64,000 nucleotides of DNA from Caballeronia concitans (GTDB lineage: Bacteria; Pseudomonadota; Gammaproteobacteria; Burkholderiales; Burkholderiaceae), in assembly GCF_001544615.1 (NCBI RefSeq), contig NZ_FCNV02000005.1:124001-188000 (forward strand), given 5' to 3'. The position numbers were made by a program, and so were the translations under genes. Below, piece by piece: positions 15,907 to 58,327 of the stretch. Each line of letters begins with the position of its first letter. The stretch's first letter is position 1. The notes under the pieces are model-generated. The model was given only the letters and a program-made list of their open reading frames with translations, made no database searches and was not told the DNA's origin.

Positions 15907-16158
15907 ATGGTGAGCTTGCAGGAAGAACTCGCGAGGCTCGAGCAGGCGGACCGGCATATCGCGGAGGCGACGGTGCGGATTGCCACGCACGAGGCGCTGA
16001 TCGGGTCCGGCGATCTGCCGGATGCTGAGAAGCGACGCGCCGAAGATTTGCTCGCCGCCATGCAGGCAACGCTTGCACAGTTTTTATTGCATCGCGAGGC
16101 TATTGTTGAGGTCGTCGGGCAGTTGATGAAGCAGTCGCACGAGGAGAAACGTGAATAG
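15907..16158 (+). CDS. Small coiled-coil hypothetical protein, 83 aa
   Basis: Unknown cytosolic protein made almost wholly of charged amphipathic helix (LQEELARLEQADRHIAEAT...). Heptad-like spacing suggests a helical hairpin or coiled coil. A short loop (IGSGDLPDAEKR) at about 32-43 separates the two helices. GGAGAAG precedes the ATG. It is divergent from the stand-alone cheB-like gene and may serve the same pathway, but I see no direct evidence. Downstream lies the large inverted repeat. Confidence 0.65.
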   Translation: MVSLQEELARLEQADRHIAEATVRIATHEALIGSGDLPDAEKRRAEDLLAAMQATLAQFLLHREAIVEVVGQLMKQSHEEKRE

Positions 16159-16881
16159 GGTTCTTTTCTAGGGTGTCCCTAGCGACCCTTTTTCCTTTTC
16201 TTATTTTCGTGTCGGTCTATTAGGTCGCCCCTCCCCGGGGCGGGGGTCACTTTCTTTGCTGCTGCAAAGAAAGTAACCAAAGAAAGCAGCTTTTCTGGCC
16301 CGAAGCACTGACTGTGTAATCACTCCGTAGAACCAGATTGGCACTCAGCTTGAAACAGCCTTGAATCACCTTCCACGCCCGCTGAGCGCCACCCCATGCG
16401 AGCCCCCGGGCTCGTCAACACCAGCGGTGTGCAACGCGCCACGCGACAGCCCAACTTCTAGAAAAGCCACCCGCCACCGCTAACGTATGCAAACCTAACT
16501 TGTTTGTCGACGGTTTGCTGCGCACGGTTCATAGTTCGTGGTTTTCAGTATGTGCTTTGTGATTGTCGTGGGGCGTCTTTTATTCACTGCGTGGGCGGTA
16601 GTGCCCGACGGTGTTGACGAGCCCGAGGGCTCGCATGGGGTGGTGCTCAGCGGGCGTGGAAGGTGATTCAAGGTTGATTCAAGCTGAGTGCCAACGTGGT
16701 TCTACGGAGTGCTCCGTTATCCAGAACAGCGGGCGAAAAAGCTGCTTTCTTTGGTTACTTTCTTTGCAGCAGCAAAGAAAGTGACCCCCGCCCCGGGGAG
16801 GGGCAACGCAGATAGACCGACGCGAATACAAGCTTCCCGAAACAAGAAGAGCCAGATAACCCCCACGCGGGTACCGCAAAA
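16159..16881. other. 723-base non-coding gap occupied by a long inverted repeat
   Basis: No gene is supported here. Nearly all of it is the inverted-repeat element annotated separately, preceded by a short hairpin-like AGGGTGTCCCTAGCGACCCT stretch. Short frames of 68-69 codons run through the right arm but consist of repeat sequence. Confidence 0.8.
16203..16828. repeat. Long imperfect inverted repeat (arms about 218 bp, loop about 189 bp)
   Basis: The left arm (16203-16421) and right arm (16611-16828) are reverse complements with scattered mismatches and small gaps. Examples: CTCCCCGGGGCGGGGGTCAC at 16231 pairs with its complement ending at 16800; GCATGGGG at 16633 pairs with CCCCATGC at 16392. 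Each arm also holds its own hairpin (ACTTTCTTTGC, 4-base loop, GCAAAGAAAGT) at 16249-16274 and 16757-16782. The central 16422-16610 has no frame. Elements with the CTTTCTTTGC core recur in many Burkholderiaceae intergenic regions, from general knowledge. It could be a MITE-like remnant, a double terminator, or a structured RNA source. Confidence 0.85.
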
Positions 16882-19800
16882 TCACCGTGCGCTTTGAGAA
16901 CGCTGATCATCCCGTGTAACGAACGAACACAACGTCTCGAGCAACTGATCGAAATCGAGCGGCTTGGCGAGATGCGCATCGAACCCCGCGTCCATCGCGG
17001 CCTTGACGTCTTCCTCACGGCTATGTCCCGTGAACGCCACCGCCGACACTGCCGCCCATCGGCGATCCGCCCGCATGCGACGCATCAGCTCATACCCGTC
17101 CATGCCGGGCAACGCAATATCCGACAGCACGACATCGATCGATTGCTCCACCTCCAGCCCGAGCGCCTCCGCCGCGTTCGTCACGCCCGTCACCGACGCG
17201 CCTTCGAGTTCTAGCAACGTAGTCAGTGAAGCAGCCGCTTCACGATCATCGTCGACGAGCAAGATCTGCAAGCCCGCAATCGACTCCCTGCCGGAATCGC
17301 GGCGCTCCGTATCCGCACCTTCTTCCTCGGCCCTCGGCAGCCACACGGTCATCGTCGCGCCGAGATTGGCGCCGCCCGAACGCGCCTGCACACGCCCGCC
17401 CTGCATCTCCGCCAGTTGCTTCACGAGCGCAAGACCAATCCCCAGACCATTGCGCGACCGGTCGCGCGTGCCCTGACGGAACATGTCGAAGATAAACGGC
17501 AAGGTATCCGCCTCGATGCCCTGCCCGCTATCGGTCACGTCGATACGATGCATGCGCCCCTCGCGGCTCAGACGCAAATCGATTCGCCCGCCGTGGTCGG
17601 TGAACTTGATCGCGTTCGAAACGAGGTTCCAGATGATCTGCTCGCAGCGCGTCGGATCGGCGATGGTCGTGGCAGGACGCGCCGGGATGTCCGTATTCAA
17701 CGTGATGCCGCGCGCGTGAGCGTCCTGTTCCACGGTATCCGCCACGCTCACGAGTATCGCGGCCAGATCCACGCGGCTGAAGTTCAGCGCCAGCTTGCCC
17801 GTCTGGATGCGCGACCAGTCGAGCAGATCGTCGATGATCTGCGCCTGGCTGCGCACCGCCTGACGTATCCACCACGCGGCGTCGCGCACGGCCTCGATAT
17901 TGCGCGTCTGCGGCAGCCGCGGCAGCATCTCCGCCTTCACGCCGATCAGATTGAGCGGATGCTTCAGCTCATGCGACAACACCGCGATGAATTCATCCTT
18001 CAACTGATTCGAATTCGACGCCTGTTCGCGCGCTGCCTGTTCCTGCATCAACGCTTCGCGGTTCGCGTCCTCGCTCAGCTTGCGTTCGGTCAGATCGCGG
18101 ATGATCTTCGCGAAGCCGGTGAACGACGCATCGACGATCGGCGTCACCACGCCGCTGCAATAGATGCGGCGGCCGTCCTTCGTCTGATGCCAGCGTTCGT
18201 CGTCGGCGCGGCCTTCCCTCGCGGCGGTCTCGCGCTCGCGCGCGGGCATCATCGACTGGCGGTCGTTCGGCTCGTAAATGAGCGCGATGTCCTGGCCCGT
18301 CACCTCGCTTTCGCTGTAGCCGAAGATGCGTTCCGCGCCCGCGTTCCAGCTCACGATCACGCCGTTGCTGTCCTGCACGATGATCGCGTAGTCCTTCGTC
18401 GATTGCGCCACGAGCCGCAGGCGCTGCTCGTTCGCGCGTGCGGCTTCCTCGGCCTGATGGCGCGCGGTGACGTCGATCAGCGTGATCACCGCGCCGTCGA
18501 TATGATCGTCCGCCGTTCGATACGGCAAGAGCCGCATCAGATACCAGCGGCCCGTCTCGCTCTGGATTTCGCGCTCGGTCAACTGCAGCGACTGGAACGA
18601 CTGCCTGACATCGTCGGCGAGCGTCGGATAGCGCAGCGAATGCGTGATGTCGAAAAGCGAGCGGCCGAGGTCGCTGTCGATCAGCTTGAAAATAGCGGTC
18701 GCGTTCGGCGTGAAGCGCTTCACGCGAATTTCCTTGTCGACGAAAACCGTCGCGATCTCGCTCGACGCGATGATGTTGTGCAGGTCGTCGTTGGCCTTGG
18801 CCGTGTCCTCCATGCGCGCCTGCATTTCGGCGTTGGCGGTCGTGAGTTCCTCGTTGACCGATTGCAGCTCTTCCTTGCTGCTCTCCAGTTCCTCGGACGT
18901 CGATCTCAGTTCCTCGTTGATCGCCTGCAATTCTTCGTTCGACGCCTTCAGTTCCTCCACCGACGTTTCATACTGCTCGATGACCGTCGCCAGTTGCTCG
19001 CGGCTGTGCTGCAACTCGTGCTCGAGTTGCAGCAGGACGGGGTCCTGACCGGCTTCGGTCTGCTCGTCGTCGGTCATGTGGCCGGCGACTTCATCGAAGA
19101 CGACGAGCAGGAATTCCGCGCCGGCGACCTGATCGAAGAACGGCCGCACCGCCATGCTGAGCCACGACACGCGCGAGTCGCGAACCCATTTCACCCGCCG
19201 CGCTTCGACGCTCGTACCGGTCTGAAGCGCGCGGAAAATCGCGGTGCGCAACTCGAGGCGCAAATCCGGCAGCACCAGCGCGATGATGTTGCTCGTCAAC
19301 TCGCCGCCCGTATGCCGCAGGAACGCGCCCGCGTTGTCGGAGAGATGGACGAGGTTCGAATCGCGATCGATGACCACGCTCGGCGGCGCGTATTGCTCCA
19401 GCGCGCGCTGATGCAGTTCGGCGTACGAAAAGCTGCGCTGCGCGGGGCTCGGCGGCGGCTGCAGCAGCGTCGCGGCGCCGGCACGGTCTTCCGTGCGGAC
19501 CGCTCCCGCCTGAAGCGGCGGGAAACTGACAGCCGGCTTCGCGCGGTTCGCGACGGCCTTCGCGCGATAGATCCGGTTCTTCTTGTCGACGACGGTGAAG
19601 AGGTCGTCGGCTGCATCGGCGGATTCGGCCGTGCCGAGAAACAGGAAGCCGTTCGGACGCAGCGCGAAGTGAAACAGTTCGAGAATCTGCCGCTGCACGG
19701 CGCGATCCAGATAAATCAGCACGTTGCGGCAGGAAATCAGGTCGAGATGCGAGAACGGCGGATCGCGCATGAGACTGTGCGCGGCGAACAGAATGCGCTC

Positions 19801-30079: not shown

Positions 30080-30862
30080 ATGACTTTGAAAAAAACCCGC
30101 GTCTGGGTGTTGCTGGCTGCATTCGCGGCGGCTCCCGCGTTTGCGCAAAACATCGCCGTGGTCAACGGCACGCCGATTCCCACGTCGCGCGCCGATGCGC
30201 TCGTGAAGCAACTCGTCCAGCAGGGTCAGCAGGATTCGCCGCAATTGCAGCAGGCCGTGCGCGAGGAACTCATCAATCGCGAAATCCTGATGCAGGAAGC
30301 CGCGCGCGAAGGCATCGCGACGCGCCCCGACGTGAAGGCGCAGATCGCCGTCGCGCAGCAGACCGTGGTGCTGCGCGCGCTGATCGAGGACTACGTCAAC
30401 AAGAACAAGCCGAGCGATGCCGAGATCAAGGCGCGCTATGACCAGCTCGTGAAGCAGACGGGCGGCGGCAAGGAACTGCATCTGCATCACATTCTCGTGG
30501 AAGACGAGGCTCAGGCGAAGGACCTGATCGCGAAGATCAAGGGCGGCGCGAGCTTCGAAGACCTCGCGAAGCAATATTCGAAGGACCCGGGATCGGGCAA
30601 GAATGGCGGCGATCTCGACTGGTCGTCGCCGTCGGCGTACGTGCCGGAATTCGGCGCGGCGGCGGAGAAGCTGCACAAGGGCGAAGTCACCGCGACGCCG
30701 GTGAAGACGCAGTTCGGCTGGCACATCATTCGTCTGGACGACAGCCGCGAGGTCGCCCCGCCGCCGTACGATCAGGTGAAGGCGCAGATCGCGCAGCAGA
30801 TGCAGCAGCAAAAGCTGCAGGACTTCGAGGAGCAGTTGCGGAAGAAGGCGGTGGTGAAGTAA
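30080..30862 (+). CDS. Periplasmic parvulin-type peptidyl-prolyl isomerase (SurA/PpiC-like)
   Basis: Exported chaperone and PPIase of 260 residues. Signal peptide MTLKKTRVWVLLAAFAAAPAFA is followed by a SurA-N-like helical domain (NIAVVNGTPIPTSRADALVKQL). The parvulin domain is at about 133-225: LHLHHILVEDEAQAKDLI, FEDLAKQYSKDPGSGKNGGDLDW and TQFGWHIIRLDD. A Gln-rich helix ends the protein. It may assist outer-membrane protein folding. A strong terminator follows, beyond which the accessory pair begins. Confidence 0.93.
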   Translation: MTLKKTRVWVLLAAFAAAPAFAQNIAVVNGTPIPTSRADALVKQLVQQGQQDSPQLQQAVREELINREILMQEAAREGIATRPDVKAQIAVAQQTVVLRALIEDYVNKNKPSDAEIKARYDQLVKQTGGGKELHLHHILVEDEAQAKDLIAKIKGGASFEDLAKQYSKDPGSGKNGGDLDWSSPSAYVPEFGAAAEKLHKGEVTATPVKTQFGWHIIRLDDSREVAPPPYDQVKAQIAQQMQQQKLQDFEEQLRKKAVVK

Positions 30863-30900
30863 GGGCTGAACAGCTCCGCTTTAATTTCGCTCCTTCGACG

Positions 30901-30935
30901 CGCCCCAGATCGCGAGTTCTGGGGCGTTTCTTTTT
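30901..30935 (+). terminator. Intrinsic terminator after the PPIase gene
   Basis: Arms CGCCCCAGA and TCTGGGGCG, 8-base loop, then TTTCTTTTT. It marks the left limit of the accessory insert. Confidence 0.85.
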
Positions 30936-30952
30936 GATGGTCTCATCTGCCG

Positions 30953-30982
30953 TTCGGCTAACCAAGCTTCTTTTCGGATAAT
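30953..30982 (+). promoter_or_regulatory. Candidate promoter of the tcmP-DUF5131 pair
   Basis: A weak -35 (TTCGGC), 18-base spacer and -10 GATAAT, giving a leader of about 60 bases. The sequence here is AT-richer than the neighbouring chromosome. Confidence 0.35.
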
Positions 30983-31048
30983 TCGACTATCGCAGTTCCT
31001 GCGTCGTCCTGAAGATTGTTCCGTTAGCGTTGATGGGGTGCAAACGGT

Positions 31049-31876
31049 ATGACAGACGAAAAATTCAAGATTGACCAGGAAGACGGCATGGATGCGATGG
31101 TCGTCGGCAGTTGGTCCGGCCACAAGCACGATATGCTGGTCGACTATGTTGGCGCATCTCGCGGAGCCAGGATGAGGTGGCCTCATGCGTCATACATCGA
31201 TCTATTCTGCGGCCCGGGCAGAGTCGTTGAGCGGCAAACGAATGCATTTCGCGATGGCGGCGCGTTGGCAGCGTGGAAGGCGTCGTGCGCCAACGGTGGT
31301 CCGTCCTTCTCGGACGTATTCATTGGCGATCTGGACCAGCGGTCCGTGGAATTTTGCCGGAAACGGCTGGAGACGTTCGGCGCTTGCGTGCATGCCTATG
31401 TGGGTGCGGCGTCGGAGACGGTGCACCGGGTCATTTGCGATTTGCCTCGCGGATTGAACCTTGCTTTTCTCGATCCGTTTAGCGCGGAGCATCTCGACTT
31501 CGAGATCATCCTTGCGCTTTCCCGCCTTAATCGAATCGATATTCTGGTTCATTTCAGCGTCATGGACATTCAGCGGAACATCGAACGGGAAGCGGTCGCA
31601 TCTGGCGCGCGACTCGAACGCATTGCCCCCGGTTGGCGGGAGGCGATCGAACTCAGTCACTTGCCGAAGAGCGCCTTCATCAACGCCTTCCTTGACTATT
31701 GGAAGGCTCTCGTTGAACGGACGGCGAATATGACTGCTGCAGACATGATGCCGTTGATAAAAAATAGTAAGAATGGTCCCTTGTATCGCCTGATCATGTT
31801 GAAACGTCATCCTCTTGCGGAGAAGTTATGGAACGACGTAGGACGAGACGACAAGGCGCAAAAGGACTTGTTCTAG
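31049..31876 (+). CDS. tcmP: Three-Cys-motif partner protein, TcmP-like
   Basis: Protein of 275 residues recognised as the partner that regularly accompanies DUF5131 'three-Cys-motif' proteins; function unknown. The fold looks like a class I methyltransferase: YIDLFCGPGR (about 49-58) resembles the AdoMet-binding loop, VFIGDLDQRSVEFCRKRL (about 90-107) resembles the acidic strand, and NLAFLDPFS (137-145) resembles the catalytic (D/N)PP(Y/F) strand. These are readings by eye, not proof of activity. Codon use is AT-richer than the neighbours, especially near the 3' end. The DUF5131 gene follows after 49 bases. The N-terminus (KFKIDQEDGMDAMVVGSWSGHKHDMLVDYV) fits the family. Confidence 0.85.
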   Translation: MTDEKFKIDQEDGMDAMVVGSWSGHKHDMLVDYVGASRGARMRWPHASYIDLFCGPGRVVERQTNAFRDGGALAAWKASCANGGPSFSDVFIGDLDQRSVEFCRKRLETFGACVHAYVGAASETVHRVICDLPRGLNLAFLDPFSAEHLDFEIILALSRLNRIDILVHFSVMDIQRNIEREAVASGARLERIAPGWREAIELSHLPKSAFINAFLDYWKALVERTANMTAADMMPLIKNSKNGPLYRLIMLKRHPLAEKLWNDVGRDDKAQKDLF

Positions 31877-31925
31877 GAGGGACAGGCTCCTACACTCCGT
31901 CGAACTAACCTAGGCAGGCAATCCG

Positions 31926-32663
31926 ATGGCGACCAAGACAGGAATCGAGTGGACAGAGATGACGTGGAATCCCGTTACGGGATGTGTGAAGATCAGTCAG
32001 GGCTGCAAGCATTGTTATGCTGAGCGGATGGCCAAGCGGCTGAAAGCGATGGGCAGCGCGCGCTATGAGTTCGAGTTCGCCCCGACGCTGCATGAAGACT
32101 TGATCGGTTTGCCTCTGAAATGGAAGAAGCCGCGCACCGTGTTCGTTAACTCGATGAGCGATCTCTTCCAAGATGCCGTTCCACTCGATTTCATTCAGCG
32201 CGTCTTCGAGACGATGGTGGCGACACCGCAGCACACCTATCAAGTGCTGACGAAGCGCTCCCGTCGTCTATTTGAGCTTGCCCCTCTTCTTCCATGGCCT
32301 TCGAACGTCTGGATGGGGGTTAGCGTGGAAAATGAGCGGGTGGTCGAGCGTGTCGATCACCTGGCAGCCACCCCTGCAATGGTCAAGTTCTTGTCGTGTG
32401 AGCCGCTGATAGGACCTCTTGATAACCTGCCGCTTGCTGGCATCGACTGGGTAATCGTCGGGGGCGAATCAGGCCCCGGAGCGAGACCTATCAACGAAAA
32501 ATGGGTCCAATCCATTCGTCGACAGTGCCATACGCAGCGCGCAGCATTCTTCTTCAAGCAGTGGGGGGGCGTACGAAAGGACAGAACCGGGCGGCTGCTC
32601 AACGGGCGCACGTACGACGCGATGCCTCAGAACAAGGGCATTTTGCTTACGCTCGTGACCTGA
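31926..32663 (+). CDS. DUF5131 (phage Gp37/Gp68-like) three-Cys-motif protein
   Basis: Protein of 245 residues. The N-terminal motif WNPVTGCVKISQGCKHCYA holds Cys20, Cys27 and Cys30 (C-x6-C-x2-C), resembling the iron-sulfur site of radical-SAM enzymes but with altered spacing. Barrel-like segments follow: TVFVNSMSDLFQDAVP, TYQVLTKRSRRL, NVWMGVSVEN, KFLSCEPLIGPL, DWVIVGGESGPGARP and the C-terminal FFFKQWGG. These match the family found in phages and in bacterial mobile cassettes. The reaction is unknown. It is downstream of tcmP and probably co-transcribed. No other phage gene is nearby. Confidence 0.88.
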   Translation: MATKTGIEWTEMTWNPVTGCVKISQGCKHCYAERMAKRLKAMGSARYEFEFAPTLHEDLIGLPLKWKKPRTVFVNSMSDLFQDAVPLDFIQRVFETMVATPQHTYQVLTKRSRRLFELAPLLPWPSNVWMGVSVENERVVERVDHLAATPAMVKFLSCEPLIGPLDNLPLAGIDWVIVGGESGPGARPINEKWVQSIRRQCHTQRAAFFFKQWGGVRKDRTGRLLNGRTYDAMPQNKGILLTLVT

Positions 32664-32717
32664 TTGCTTCGGTGGTGGAATGCTGGGGCGAATAGCAGCA
32701 GCGTCGCCCCGCACCAG

Positions 32718-32750
32718 CAAAAACACCCCGAAGCGCAAGCTCCGGGGTGT
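32718..32750 (-). terminator. Intrinsic terminator of purL
   Basis: On the minus strand, arms ACACCCCG and CGGGGTGT enclose 12 bases and are followed by five T. It marks the right limit of the accessory insert. Confidence 0.8.
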
Positions 32751-32780
32751 CTTCGATCTACTTCACGTCAGCGCCCGACA

Positions 32781-35700
32781 TTACCCCAGGAACCGCCGCG
32801 CATTCTGGAATACGCGCAGCCACGGGCTCGCGTCGGTGGCCCAGTCATCCGGCGTCCAGCTCATCTGCACATTGCGATGCACGCGCTCCATATGCGGCAT
32901 CAGCACGGTGAAGCGGCCATCGGGCGTCGTCACCGACGTAATGCCCTGCGGCGAGCCGTTCGGGTTGAACGGATAGCTTTCCGTCGCGTTCCCGCGATGA
33001 TCGACGTAACGCATCGCCACGAGCGCGTGGTTTGCATCGCCCTGTTGCGAGAAGTCCGCGAAACCTTCGCCGTGCGCGACCGCGACCGGAATGCGCGAAC
33101 CTTCCATGCCCGCGAAGAAGATCGACGGCGAGTTCTGCACTTCGACGAGTGAGAAGCGCGCCTCGAACTGCTCCGACTTGTTGCGCGTGAACTTCGGCCA
33201 CGCTTCCGCGCCCGGAATGATCGACGCCAGGCTCGACATCATCTGGCAGCCATTGCAGATGCCCAGCGCGAAGGTGTCCGGGCGGCCGAAGAACGCCGCG
33301 AACATGTCCGCGAGACGCGGATTGAAGCGGATGGTCTTCGCCCAGCCCTCGCCCGCGCCGAGCACGTCGCCGTACGAGAAGCCGCCGCACGCCACCGCGC
33401 CCGCGAAATCCGCGAGCGTCGCGCGGCCTTCGAGCAGATCGCTCATGTGGACGTCGTGCGCGTCGAAGCCGGCGCGATCAAACGCGTACGCCGTTTCCAG
33501 ATGCGAGTTGACGCCCTGCTCGCGCAGGATCGCCACGCGCGGGCGCTTGTTCGTCGCGATGAAAGGAGCCGCGACGTCATCCGCCGGATCGAAGGTCAGC
33601 ACCGGCGAGAGGCCCGGATCGGCCGCATCGAGCAGCGCGTCGTATTCGGCGTCGGCGCACGCAGGGTTGTCACGCAGACGCGCGATGCGCCAGCTCACCT
33701 CGCTCCACGCGCGATACAGCTCCACGCGCGGCGCACCGTAGATCTTCTTCGCGTCGCGATAGATTTCGATCGCGTCGTTCTCGTTCGGCTTGCCGATCAC
33801 ATGCGAGCACGCCGACAGCCCATGCGCGCGCAACGCGCCGAGCACCGCGTCGCGGTCCGATGCGCGCACCTGCACCACCGCGCCCAGTTCCTCGCTGAAG
33901 AGCGCGCGCAGCGTGCGATCGTCGCGGCGGCCGCTCGTCTGCTTGGCCCAGTCCTTCGCGTCGCCGTAATCGGATTCGTGGTTCGCGTCGAGCGTCAGCA
34001 TGTCGACGTTCAGCGACACGCCCACGTGCCCCGCGAACGCCATTTCGCAGACCGTCGCCCACAGGCCGCCGTCGGAGCGGTCGTGGTACGCGAGCAGCTT
34101 GCCATCGGCGTTGAGCGACTGGATCGCGGCGAAAAAGCGCTTCAGGTCTTCGGGATCGTCGACGTCGGGCGTCGCGTCGCCGACTTGCTGCGTCACCTGC
34201 GCGAGAATGCTGCCGCCCAGGCGATTGCGCCCGCGGCCTAGATCGATCGCGATCAGCACGGTGTTCGTATCGGCGGCCAGTTGCGGCGTCAGGTGGCGGC
34301 GCACGTCCTCGACCGGCGCGAACGCCGAGATGATCAGCGACACCGGCGACACCACTTCCTTCTGCGCGCCGCGCGCGTCCTGCCACTTCGTGCGCATCGA
34401 CAGCGAATCCTTGCCGACCGGAATGCTGATGCCGAGCGCCGGGCACAGTTCCATGCCGATGGCCTTCACCGTGTCGTAGAGCGCGGCGTCCTCGCCCGCG
34501 CTGCCGCACGCGGCCATCCAGTTCGCTGACAGCTTGAGCTTGCCCAGCGACTCGATCGGTGCCGACGCGATGTTCGTCACCGCTTCGCCGACCGCCATGC
34601 GGCCGGACGCGGGCGCGTCGATGACGGCGAGCGGCGTGCGCTCGGCCATCGTCATCGCTTCGCCGCGGAAGCCCGCGTAGTCCATCGTCGTGATCGCGCA
34701 ATCGGCGACCGGCACTTGCCACGGACCGACGAACTGATCGCGCGCGGTCGTGCCGCCCACCGAGCGATCGCCGATGGTGATGAGGAACGACTTGCTCGCG
34801 ACGCTCGGATGCTTGAGCACATCGACCGCGACTTCCGACAGCATCAGGCCGGTCACATCGACGGGCTCGAAGCGCGCCGTTTCGCGCGTCACGTCGCGAT
34901 GCATCTTGGGCGGCTTGCCGAGCAGCACGTCCATCGGCATGTCGACGGGTTCCTGGCCTTCGTTTTCATCGTCGATGAGCTTGAGCTGACGCTCGTCGGT
35001 CGCGACGCCGACGACCGCCACCGGGCAGCGCTCGCGCTCGCAGATCGCCTCGAACGCGGGCAGATCGGCCGGCGCGATGGCCAGCACGTAGCGCTCTTGC
35101 GCTTCGTTCGACCAGATTTCGCGCGGCGACAGACCGGTTTCCTCGAGCTGAACCTTGCGCAACTCGAAGCGCGCGCCCTTGCCCGCGCCATCGACGAGTT
35201 CCGGGAACGCGTTCGAAATGCCGCCCGCGCCGACGTCGTGGATCGAGAGAATGGGGTTGCGCTCGCCTTGCTGCCAGCACGCGTTGATCACTTCCTGCGC
35301 GCGGCGCTGAATTTCAGGATTGCCGCGCTGGACCGAATCGAAATCGAGTTCGGCGGTGTTCGCGCCGGTCGCCATCGACGATGCCGCGCCCCCGCCCATG
35401 CCGATGCGCATGCCCGGCCCGCCGATCTGGATCAGGAGCGTGCCGGCCGGCAGATCGTGCTTGTGAGTGTGCTGGTCCGAGATATTGCCGATGCCGCCCG
35501 CGATCATGATCGGCTTGTGATAGCCGCGCACGCGGCCCGCCACGTTCTGCTCGTAAGTGCGGAAGTAGCCGCCGAGGTTCGGGCGGCCGAATTCGTTGTT
35601 GAAAGCGGCCGCGCCGATCGGGCCGTCGATCATGATCTGCAACGGCGACGCGATGCGCTCCGGGCGGCCATACGGCTCGTGCTGATCGGCGGGATTGCGC

Positions 35701-55963: not shown

Positions 55964-58327
55964 TCAGATGCCGATGCGCCCTTCCACGTAAAACGTGCGT
56001 CCCGGATACGGATGGAACACGTAGTAGCGCCGGTCGAACAGGTTGTCCACGCCCACGCCCAGTTCCGTTTTCTTCGACGGCTTGTAGGTGAACTTGGCAT
56101 CGACGACGGCATACGTGCTCGTGCCGCCATACGTGTTCGGATTGACGTCGGTGTTGGTGAGCGTGTTGTACTGGCGCCCCGAATAACGCAGCGCAAGCGT
56201 GCCGGCCATCTTCGCCGTCGCGCGATACGTCGCCACCGCATTCACGCGCCACAGCGGAATGCGATAAAAGTACTTGCCCACCGACGCCGGATTGTTGCTG
56301 TTCTCGATGATCTTCGACTGCGTGTACGCGACGTTCGCGGCGAGATCGAGTCCGCGAATGAGCACGTCTTCGCCCTCATAACTCGCTTCCGCGCCGCGCG
56401 ATCGCACCTTGCCGATGTTCTGGAAGTTCGTCACGTTCGGAATGACGGTCGTGTTCGTCTGGCTCAGGATCGTGTTCTTTACGTCATCCTGAAAGAGCGT
56501 GAAGCGATAGACGCCGTTCCCATGCATCCATTCGGCGGTGAGCTCTTTCGACAGATCGTCTTCCGGCTGCAGATTTGGATTGCTGTTGACGATCGACACC
56601 CCGTTGATCTGCCCTTGAAACAGTTCGCCGACGGTCGGAAAGCGATACGCGCGACCGATCGATGCACGCAGCGTCAGCTCGTTGGTGGCATCGAACGAAA
56701 GCGATGCCTTCGGCGACCAGTGGCTCTGGCTCACATCGCCATAGGCAAGCGATGTCCCGCCGAGCGCGCGCGAGCCGTCATACGCGTTCCAGTTCTCGTA
56801 ACGCACGCCGTACGTGAAAGCCCAGCGCGGCAGGAAGCGCCACGCGTCCTGCGCGTAGACGGCCTGCGTGCGCGTGCGCCCGGTGAACGCATTCGCGAAG
56901 GAAGCGCCCGCGCCATCGCGCCATGCGTCCGTGTTCGACGTGACGTTGTCGAGGAAATAGTTGTCGTAGTGATAGCCGAACGACAGCGCGTGCGCCGCGA
57001 GGCCGGCGCTTTGCGTCGGCGTCCAGCTCGTGCGCAGATCGAGCGACTTCCATCCCGAGCCGGAACCGTCCGTGAGCGTGCCGGGGCCGTCGCCGGGCAC
57101 GCCGGACTTCGCCGTGCGCGCGATGCTCTGCGTGATGTCGAAGTACGACGCGACCGCCTCGGCGTTCCACCCGCTGTCGTTATGCGTGCGCAGCGACAGG
57201 CCGTAGAGGAAATTTTCGCTCGACCCCATGCTCGGCGCGAACGTCGCGGCCGGAATGTTGTATTCGAAGCCTTCGATGTTCACGCGTCCGCTGTACACCG
57301 GATTGCCGGCGGCGTCGCGCAGGAAGCTTGTGGTGTCGCTGTTGTACTTCTGATGCCAGTAGCCGAGCGCGAAGCCGGCCTGCAGCGTGTTCGTGAGATC
57401 GTAGGCGAGCTTCACGCGCAACTGGTCCTGAAACGTGCGCTCGATGCCCTCCGCCTGCGTGCCGAGCACCGCCGTGCGCGCGTTGAACTGATCGTTGTAG
57501 AAGCGCGCGCCGGTGACGGGCGTATCGGCGGCGGTCGCGGGCGTCCTCGATTGCGCGAAGGTCGCGAATTGCAGCGGCTGGCCGGTGTTTTCCAGATGAT
57601 CGAAGCCGATCAGAAACGAGAACTTGCCGATGCGGTCGCCGACGGTCGCGGTCGTGTTCGTGCCGTTGAAGTTGCGGTCGATGCCGAAGAGATCGAAGTG
57701 CTGCGTGTAGGCCTGCACCTTCGCGTCGGCTTCGAATTGCGTCGGCATGCGTGTCGTGATGGCGACGGTCGCGCCGATCGAGTTGCCTGGATAGAGCGCG
57801 GAATACGGGCCGTAGAACACGTCCGTGCGGGCGATGTCGTCGGCGAAGACCATCGACCAGCGCGGCGCGAACGTCCACGTATTGCCGAGAAAGTTGCTGA
57901 GCAAGAGGCCGTCCGCGTACACGAGACCGCGCGCGGTCTGCGCGTTGCTCGTGCCGCGCACGGCGATGGTCGCGTTCGGATCGCCGATGAAGCGCTTGCG
58001 CACGGCCAGGTTCGGCGCGTACTTCAGCACGTCTTCAGGCGTCGTGACGTTCCAGTACTGGGACTGGTCGGGGGTCACGGTCGTGACGGTGGCGGGCAGG
58101 TTCGGATCGAGCGGCGAGCGCACGGGCGCCACCGACTGCGCCGTCACCACGACGGGCGCGAGCGCGGTTTCGGTTTCGGACGCGGGTGAATCGGCGGCGG
58201 CGGCCGCGGCGACGGGCGTGGCGGACCAGGCCGCATGCGCCATCAGCGACAACGGCAAGGCTGCGCGCAAAGGCGTGACGGCGCGACGGCGCGGATGCCG
58301 GCGCGCTCGCTTGAGGAGCGTGAACAT
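55964..58327 (-). CDS. TonB-dependent outer-membrane receptor
   Basis: Outer-membrane active transporter of 787 residues. A long basic signal peptide (about 1-36) is followed by a short linker and the plug domain (about 75-185: YWNVTTPEDVLKYAPNLAVRKR, IAVRGTSNAQTARGLVYADGL, DVFYGPYSALYPGNSIGATVAITTR). The 22-strand barrel contains RASIGRAYRFPTVGELFQG and ends GRTFYVEGRIGI. I see no cysteine, so it lacks a Cys-based copper site like that of OprC. The ligand is unknown; its DUF2946 and PepSY neighbours suggest a metal or metal chelate. Confidence 0.9.
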   Translation of the reverse strand: MFTLLKRARRHPRRRAVTPLRAALPLSLMAHAAWSATPVAAAAAADSPASETETALAPVVVTAQSVAPVRSPLDPNLPATVTTVTPDQSQYWNVTTPEDVLKYAPNLAVRKRFIGDPNATIAVRGTSNAQTARGLVYADGLLLSNFLGNTWTFAPRWSMVFADDIARTDVFYGPYSALYPGNSIGATVAITTRMPTQFEADAKVQAYTQHFDLFGIDRNFNGTNTTATVGDRIGKFSFLIGFDHLENTGQPLQFATFAQSRTPATAADTPVTGARFYNDQFNARTAVLGTQAEGIERTFQDQLRVKLAYDLTNTLQAGFALGYWHQKYNSDTTSFLRDAAGNPVYSGRVNIEGFEYNIPAATFAPSMGSSENFLYGLSLRTHNDSGWNAEAVASYFDITQSIARTAKSGVPGDGPGTLTDGSGSGWKSLDLRTSWTPTQSAGLAAHALSFGYHYDNYFLDNVTSNTDAWRDGAGASFANAFTGRTRTQAVYAQDAWRFLPRWAFTYGVRYENWNAYDGSRALGGTSLAYGDVSQSHWSPKASLSFDATNELTLRASIGRAYRFPTVGELFQGQINGVSIVNSNPNLQPEDDLSKELTAEWMHGNGVYRFTLFQDDVKNTILSQTNTTVIPNVTNFQNIGKVRSRGAEASYEGEDVLIRGLDLAANVAYTQSKIIENSNNPASVGKYFYRIPLWRVNAVATYRATAKMAGTLALRYSGRQYNTLTNTDVNPNTYGGTSTYAVVDAKFTYKPSKKTELGVGVDNLFDRRYYVFHPYPGRTFYVEGRIGI

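Follow-up and report, generated by a model that had tools for sequence, protein, structure and literature searches.

A TcmP-DUF5131 gene pair of Caballeronia concitans: a possible clamp-tethered system acting on DNA

The gene pair and its families

In a 64,000-nucleotide stretch of the Caballeronia concitans genome (contig NZ_FCNV02000005.1, positions 124,001 to 188,000; the window), two genes on the plus strand occupy the interval between a ppiC-type gene and purL. The first, tcmP (31049-31876), encodes a three-Cys-motif partner protein of 275 amino acids (P0001) with a predicted class I methyltransferase fold, and the second (31926-32663) encodes a DUF5131 protein of 245 amino acids (P0002), which belongs to the phage Gp37/Gp68 family and is predicted to be a radical S-adenosylmethionine (SAM) protein resembling spore photoproduct lyase (SPL). 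An earlier note on this DNA, made from its letters alone, had described two adjacent genes 49 bases apart that were richer in AT than their flanks. Both open reading frames (ORFs) were found as described, 49 bp apart on the same strand, and their GC content (0.555 for tcmP and 0.570 for the DUF5131 gene) is lower than that of the adjacent upstream ppiC-type gene (0.632), as it is at third codon positions (0.66 and 0.69 against 0.850).

P0001 scored 157.1 bits against TIGR04474 (curated cut-off 53) and matched no family in a Pfam search, and P0002 scored 329.4 bits against PF07505 (gathering cut-off 28.9) over profile positions 1-243. The gene pair can be regarded as real rather than a chance arrangement, because these family scores lie far above the cut-offs, the pair recurs elsewhere and both genes are under purifying selection: the uncorrected pN/pS values among three copies at the same chromosomal site were 0.10-0.15 for DUF5131 and 0.22-0.29 for TcmP. 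Between the window and Caballeronia fortuita, DUF5131 was 84 percent identical and TcmP only 66 percent, a contrast which would fit a conserved DUF5131 catalyst with a fast-changing TcmP partner.

The same two families are already catalogued in PADLOC-DB as the candidate system PDC-M41/PDC-M30. P0002 matched PDC-M41B with 395 bits and PDC-M30B with 376 bits, but P0001 is distant to PDC-M41A (36 bits, E 1.3e-9, for a model with no curated cut-off shown), and the clamp-type tail and SOS settings described below are additions of the present analysis. The PDC entries are phage-defence candidates proposed by 'guilt by embedding' (PMC10855318). No described mechanism was seen for PDC-M41 or PDC-M30. 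The literature found that names the TcmP family, including listings seen in part, gave no function for it. The pair in the window adds a new member to a known kind of gene pair whose role is still unexplained.

The predicted fold and cysteine motif of DUF5131

No sequence relatives of TcmP or DUF5131 were present in the PDB, and profile searches gave nothing convincing. The AlphaFold2 model of DUF5131 is a confident one, with a predicted local distance difference test (pLDDT) of 90.7, and SPL made up six of its seven best PDB matches in Foldseek (TM-score 0.50-0.56, E 1.1e-3 to 1.8e-2). The cysteine motif that had been noticed near the start of the protein is present in the translation as C20-x6-C27-x2-C30 (codons at 31983-32015, plus strand), and in an alignment of 54 DUF5131 sequences these three residues were the sole invariant cysteines. 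When this alignment was compared by hhalign with seven rSAM_PA0069 proteins, which we take to be of COG1533 type, the CX3CX2C motif of the latter was placed on C20, C27 and C30, with a three-residue insertion in DUF5131, and their TKS motif on the invariant LTKR of DUF5131. The three cysteines are thus a candidate [4Fe-4S] site, on the evidence of sequence, invariance and this alignment.

The suggestion in the earlier note that DUF5131 is radical-SAM-like was supported, because the three cysteines are invariant, they align with a radical-SAM cluster loop and the best fold matches are to SPL. What DUF5131 shares with SPL and the rSAM_PA0069 proteins is the predicted fold, the aligned cluster loop and the TKR/TKS motif, and what separates it from them is its CX6CX2C spacing and its frequent TcmP partner. 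P0002 also matched TIGR04471, Radical SAM mobile pair protein A (E 2.5e-20), which by its name is likewise one half of a mobile pair, but the score of 72.9 bits falls below the cut-off of 355 and the partner here is TcmP.

Several observations pull against this assignment. No PDB entry matched the DUF5131 model at E <= 0.001, and the hhalign comparison had a probability of just 22.6 percent despite its E value of 9e-4. The spacing of the cysteines departs from the canonical radical-SAM CX3CX2C. SPL carries a conserved hydrogen-donating cysteine in addition to those of the cluster, and no cysteine other than C20, C27 and C30 was found in the invariant and nearly invariant columns of the 54 DUF5131 sequences. 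There was also no SPL family model among the Pfam and TIGRFAM-type families matched by P0002. On balance, a radical-SAM enzyme of the SPL type is the most likely identity of DUF5131.

The methyltransferase fold and C-terminal tail of TcmP

The note had pointed out DLFCGPGR, GDLDQ and NLAFLDPF as methyltransferase-like motifs in the partner protein. All three are in the TcmP translation, and the AlphaFold2 model (pLDDT 90.4) agrees with this reading, with 111 PDB matches at E <= 0.001, of which the 50 listed are methyltransferase-type entries; by its model, TcmP has a class I methyltransferase fold. K26, Y33, D51, G55 and D142 were invariant among 18 diverse TcmPs, and motif IV reads DP[FY] or, in some TcmPs, DQ.

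Among the PDB entries that aligned with TcmP over its whole length was RlmJ (DUF519), an rRNA adenine methyltransferase, with a TM-score of about 0.5. This raises the possibility of an RNA-modifying pair, in which TcmP would start, in the manner of RlmJ, a modification of rRNA or tRNA that DUF5131 then finishes, and one prophage DUF5131 gene is annotated as an RNA methyltransferase, although annotation names in phage records are labels only. TcmP differs from RlmJ in its DP[FY] or DQ at motif IV, in the clamp-type tail of the P0001 class and in its radical-SAM-like partner. As SPL acts on DNA, and as the tail and the SOS settings of relatives point to DNA as well, an RNA substrate appears the least probable of the explanations considered here.

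A feature of TcmP that points to DNA is its C-terminus. P0001 ends in the pentapeptide QKDLF (codons at 31859-31873, plus strand), a candidate sliding-clamp-binding motif which agrees at four of five positions with QL[S/D]LF, the clamp-binding consensus, given more generally as QxxLF (PMC12309361). In Pol II and Pol IV the clamp motif is likewise at the extreme C-terminus, and the form in Pol IV has six residues (PMC3716654). The end of TcmP is predicted to be flexible, with residues 269-275 of the model having a pLDDT below 50, though DSSP writes a helix there. In the class of TcmPs to which P0001 belongs (the P0001 class), a C-terminal QxxLF or QxxPhixPhi follows a linker of variable length.

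By a single regular expression applied to the last 12 residues, the motif was present in 25 of 32 dereplicated P0001-class proteins, against a mean of 1.2 and a maximum of 5 of 32 when these tails were shuffled. It was also found in 76 of 5266 control frames, which were taken from stop to stop at 200 amino acids or more and many of which are not genes, and in 17 of 985 called ORFs of 200 amino acids or more, the stricter control. An earlier count with a different expression gave 25/28 against 19/3184 controls. The seven P0001-class tails that did not match were QGSWDF, NRSLF, TRSLF, NRGLFD, MQDLFGD, NREFDF and QQSFPGM. Of the 61 other TcmPs, 14 had the motif, against a mean of 2.5 and a maximum of 7 after shuffling, and 12 of these 14 were proteins of 417-479 amino acids, ending for example in QLRLPL or QLRLKF, from a set of 22 TcmPs of 410-480 amino acids.

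TcmP therefore shares a short QxxLF or six-residue motif with clamp clients such as Pol II, Pol IV and UmuC, but it is not a polymerase, and its binding to the clamp is a prediction from the motif. In the parts available of the literature found naming TcmP, no link with the clamp was given, and the clamp-type tail of P0001-class TcmPs, as recognised in their sequences, is new here. The motif is not general on DUF5131 itself, as it was found in 2 of 25 DUF5131 proteins with a TcmP and in 2 of 53 without. Two viral DUF5131 proteins from loci with no TcmP match (L150 and L160) have the C-termini KQVALFN and KQAALFN, as if a clamp-type tail were on DUF5131.

Distribution and mobility of the pair

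Among Burkholderiales genomes, 21/399 had a TcmP and 42/399 a DUF5131 match over the cut-off, and in a phylum-wide set DUF5131 was found in 40/398. Of 33 DUF5131-bearing regions in the phylum survey, 21 had a TcmP match by a profile that may miss distant TcmPs. A scan of genome contigs with P0001 found one locus, in C. fortuita, and the window's own genome has one DUF5131 gene. Matches to P0001 by tblastn were found in four plasmid records and in no phage, and P0002 matched 161 phage records. Each of the three plasmids examined has genes for a long and a short TcmP together with one for DUF5131.

DUF5131 was found in viral contigs as well, encoded in at least 592 stretches. In the viral DUF5131 loci that were kept, TcmP was directly adjacent, whether upstream, downstream or convergent, in 26 of 80. 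For the remainder, no clear second partner was found among the shared neighbours, whose largest clusters appear to be spurious frames of high GC content. By a pattern search built on an alignment, 37 viral loci of the P0001 class were recovered, and in 36 of these, which were not dereplicated, a DUF5131 gene was adjacent to tcmP, as it is in the window; this linkage is the one for which TcmP is named. In 29 of the 37 loci the two frames are convergent, with their last codons 3 bp apart. As adjacency has been kept through such rearrangement, a joint function of TcmP and DUF5131 can be argued. The 37th locus (L246, 5530-6507) has a single frame that joins the start of a TcmP to the end of a DUF5131, and is probably a deletion fusion.

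The chromosomal site of the pair is also variable. For the upstream ppiC-type protein (P0003), 58 genomes of the genus were searched, including that of the window, and six of these were left out of the site comparison owing to weak or partial matches. The gap between ppiC and purL (30863-32785 in the window) was below 200 bp in 28 of the 58 genomes, 2.7-3.4 kb in 14 and about 1.1 kb in 2, and purL was not reached in 5, including G416, where a truncated tcmP adjoins a transposase-like ORF. The interval therefore holds a short gap, a large gene, the TcmP-DUF5131 pair or other small inserts. The large ORF (in L092, L095 and L102) presumably encodes a protein resembling beta-N-acetylhexosaminidase. 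Three genomes have tcmP-DUF5131 at this site, the window and two others (G407 and G422), which contain a further 2.6-2.8 kb.

Synonymous differences between the three intact cassettes amounted to 0.63-0.78 per site, compared with 0.20-0.25 in the adjacent ppiC gene. The cassette is thus much more diverged than its flank, which is what exchange would produce rather than descent with the chromosome, although codon bias in ppiC could contribute to this contrast. Together with the plasmids and the phages, the variable site agrees with the sporadic, mobile distribution that the earlier note had proposed, and some relatives have restriction-modification neighbours.

A conserved element, TCTGCCGTTCGGCTAAC, lies upstream of tcmP at 30946-30962 on the plus strand. 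In the three intact cassettes at this site, and in a decayed one (window 30946-30962, L102:865, L104:828 and L107:864), its near-palindromic 11-bp core, CTGCCGTTCGG, precedes tcmP by about 100-105 bp, and it was absent from all the sites without tcmP that were compared. The core was also found at six unrelated places among the loci examined. The element is probably part of the cassette, and its core could possibly be an operator or a cassette boundary.

Gene neighbourhoods of relatives

An association with SOS genes was seen in the Burkholderiales genome G073 (L256:5017-13183), where lexA, a small ORF, tcmP, the DUF5131 gene, imuA, imuB and dnaE2 follow each other on one strand. The scores were 229 bits for lexA (TIGR00498), 219 bits for imuA (NF033429) and 1506 bits for the error-prone polymerase (NF004225); imuB had a weak family match and is similar to a Y-family polymerase of Burkholderia glumae. 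On a plasmid of B. glumae, the order tcmP-DUF5131-tcmP lies beside genes for an error-prone polymerase, a Y-family polymerase and ImuA. At least two of the 49 DUF5131 matches listed had imuA within 10 kb (under 100 bp in G073 and about 8 kb in G255), for which the chance was estimated by hand at about 0.15. The link to the mutasome is weaker than the single operon of G073 suggests. In the genome to which the window belongs, three imuA matches exceeded the family cut-off (contigs C7, C10 and C13), with none on the cassette contig C26 among the matches listed.

LexA matches by blastp were present in 8 of 37 Burkholderiales regions (L256, L259, L262, L265, L269, L273, L274 and L276) and in none of 20 control regions, all of which were from Burkholderiales. 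The match was directly beside DUF5131 or TcmP in L262, L265, L273 and L274, one gene away in L276 and some 3.5 kb away in L259; L273, L274 and L276 are DUF5131 regions without a TcmP match. The five such regions tested besides L256 scored near the cut-offs of the LexA and UmuD models.

A related setting can be traced in mycobacteria, where Rv2734 of Mycobacterium tuberculosis is presumably the DUF5131 gene. In BCG, recX is BCG_2749c and the product of BCG_2748c has a TcmP domain (PMC7387457), and in M. tuberculosis Rv2735c follows recX and is co-transcribed with recA and recX (PMC3062782); from its position, Rv2735c corresponds to BCG_2748c. Rv2734, Rv2735c, recX and recA fall together in a single mitomycin C cluster (PMC5057432).

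The neighbours in general were tallied for 66 of the 71 regions, the other 5 being ones in which ORF calling had missed the core genes, and the controls were the proteins of the six most central ORFs in every control region. Peptidase_S24 was the commonest Pfam family among the 127 immediate neighbours (6), followed by DNA_methylase (5), and neither was among the 25 commonest families listed for the 120 control proteins; the Pfam and PADLOC tallies list the 25 commonest families, so that single control matches may be hidden. The immediate neighbours also included matches to a type II methyltransferase, IIG, mads-type systems and HerA, but control proteins gave some restriction-modification and other defence-type matches too, and the enrichment is suggestive only.

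These neighbours could be explained by a dedicated anti-phage defence system, in which the tail would bring the pair to phage replication forks, where it would recognise the phage DNA or attack it chemically. The scores with PDC-M41B and PDC-M30B and the variable chromosomal site would also fit, as would the S. meliloti TcmP that is given in one list next to the Hna defence gene (PMC12445080). Of 100 P. aeruginosa strains, 32 were predicted to carry PDC-M30, and 68.8 percent of these 32 fell in the resistant group, but the PDC systems are candidates without experimental validation (PMC10855318). The wide carriage of DUF5131 by phages themselves speaks against this role. We regard defence as unlikely on present evidence, though it is the strongest of the alternatives.

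A different role, in which the pair marks the DNA of its carrier, often a phage or plasmid, against restriction, would account for the phage and plasmid records, for the methyltransferase fold with DPF at motif IV and for the presence of DNA_methylase (5) and integrase (3) among the immediate neighbours. A DUF5131 gene in a prophage of M. abscessus also lies two genes after a DNA methyltransferase. However, no adjoining TcmP was found for 54 of the 80 viral DUF5131 genes, and motif IV of some TcmPs reads DQ rather than DP. This explanation is improbable, and clearly behind defence.

A possible clamp-tethered system acting on DNA

The explanation we favour is a mobile two-gene, clamp-tethered system acting on DNA, to which we give a probability of roughly 45 percent. 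A [4Fe-4S] cluster held by C20, C27 and C30 of DUF5131 would cleave SAM, and the radical so formed would act on a DNA base or lesion. TcmP would be the DNA-binding or base-modifying partner of DUF5131. By its flexible QKDLF tail it would tether both proteins to the bacterial sliding clamp (DnaN) and so allow them to work on newly copied or stalled DNA. The Fe-S cluster, the use of SAM, the DNA substrate, the binding of the clamp and any SOS control are all inferred, as is a role in repair, which we favour over marking of DNA. Where the earlier note had proposed a module acting on RNA, protein or nucleotide, its mobile two-gene character stands, and the substrate is narrowed towards DNA because of the clamp-type tail of the P0001 class and the lexA, recA and imuABC settings of relatives.

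A more specific form of this system is doubtful, although it is worth stating. In it, a radical enzyme of SPL type would undo or introduce a new base change on DNA at the replication fork, with the methyltransferase-fold subunit providing clamp docking and base recognition, and the system is in places linked to the SOS response. If this were true, phages and plasmids would be spreading a previously unrecognised form of DNA repair or marking coupled to replication. In either form, DNA repair or marking becomes a directly testable hypothesis for a pair so far unexplained, given the clamp-type tail, the SPL-like fold and the SOS settings.

A number of results weigh against the clamp-tethered system. 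The tail and the SOS setting seldom coincide: among the TcmPs of the eight SOS-type or LexA-bearing regions, the tail matched only in that of L265 and in the long one of the two in L258, and both the TcmP inside the lexA-imuABC run and that of L262 are without it. The short TcmPs on the three plasmids examined end in NRSLF, TRSLF and NREFDF; of these, NRSLF belongs to the B. glumae plasmid, whose long TcmP has QLKLF near its end. Outside the P0001 class, 47 of 61 TcmPs lack the tail.

The SOS association itself is limited in extent. LexA matches were found in none of the 34 phylum-survey regions, imuA was near the cassette in 3 of 71 regions (L256, L258 and L325) against 0 of 20 controls, and the Peptidase_S24 neighbours may be phage repressors. 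No LexA box was found near the cassette in the window, where one-mismatch matches numbered 7 against 10 expected, with none near 31 kb. RlmJ, the best whole-length relative of TcmP, modifies rRNA. A frameshift in Rv2735c was present in 16 of 27 isolates from one group (PMC9846648), in which the gene is therefore dispensable.

Other features of the region

A terminator-like hairpin was found by pattern scan at 30900-30927 (plus strand), between the upstream ppiC-type gene and the cassette, in a region with four terminator-like sites against 2.0 expected. No RNA element was detected in 30800-32900 at E <= 0.5, and a pattern scan of 30800-32850 found no sigma-70 promoter-like site. The only other near match of the upstream element in the window, with two mismatches, is at 56971-56987, inside a gene that we take to encode a TonB receptor. 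At 16001-17000, the GC content of the window dips (to 0.559) as deeply as in the cassette, within surroundings that are otherwise richer in GC.

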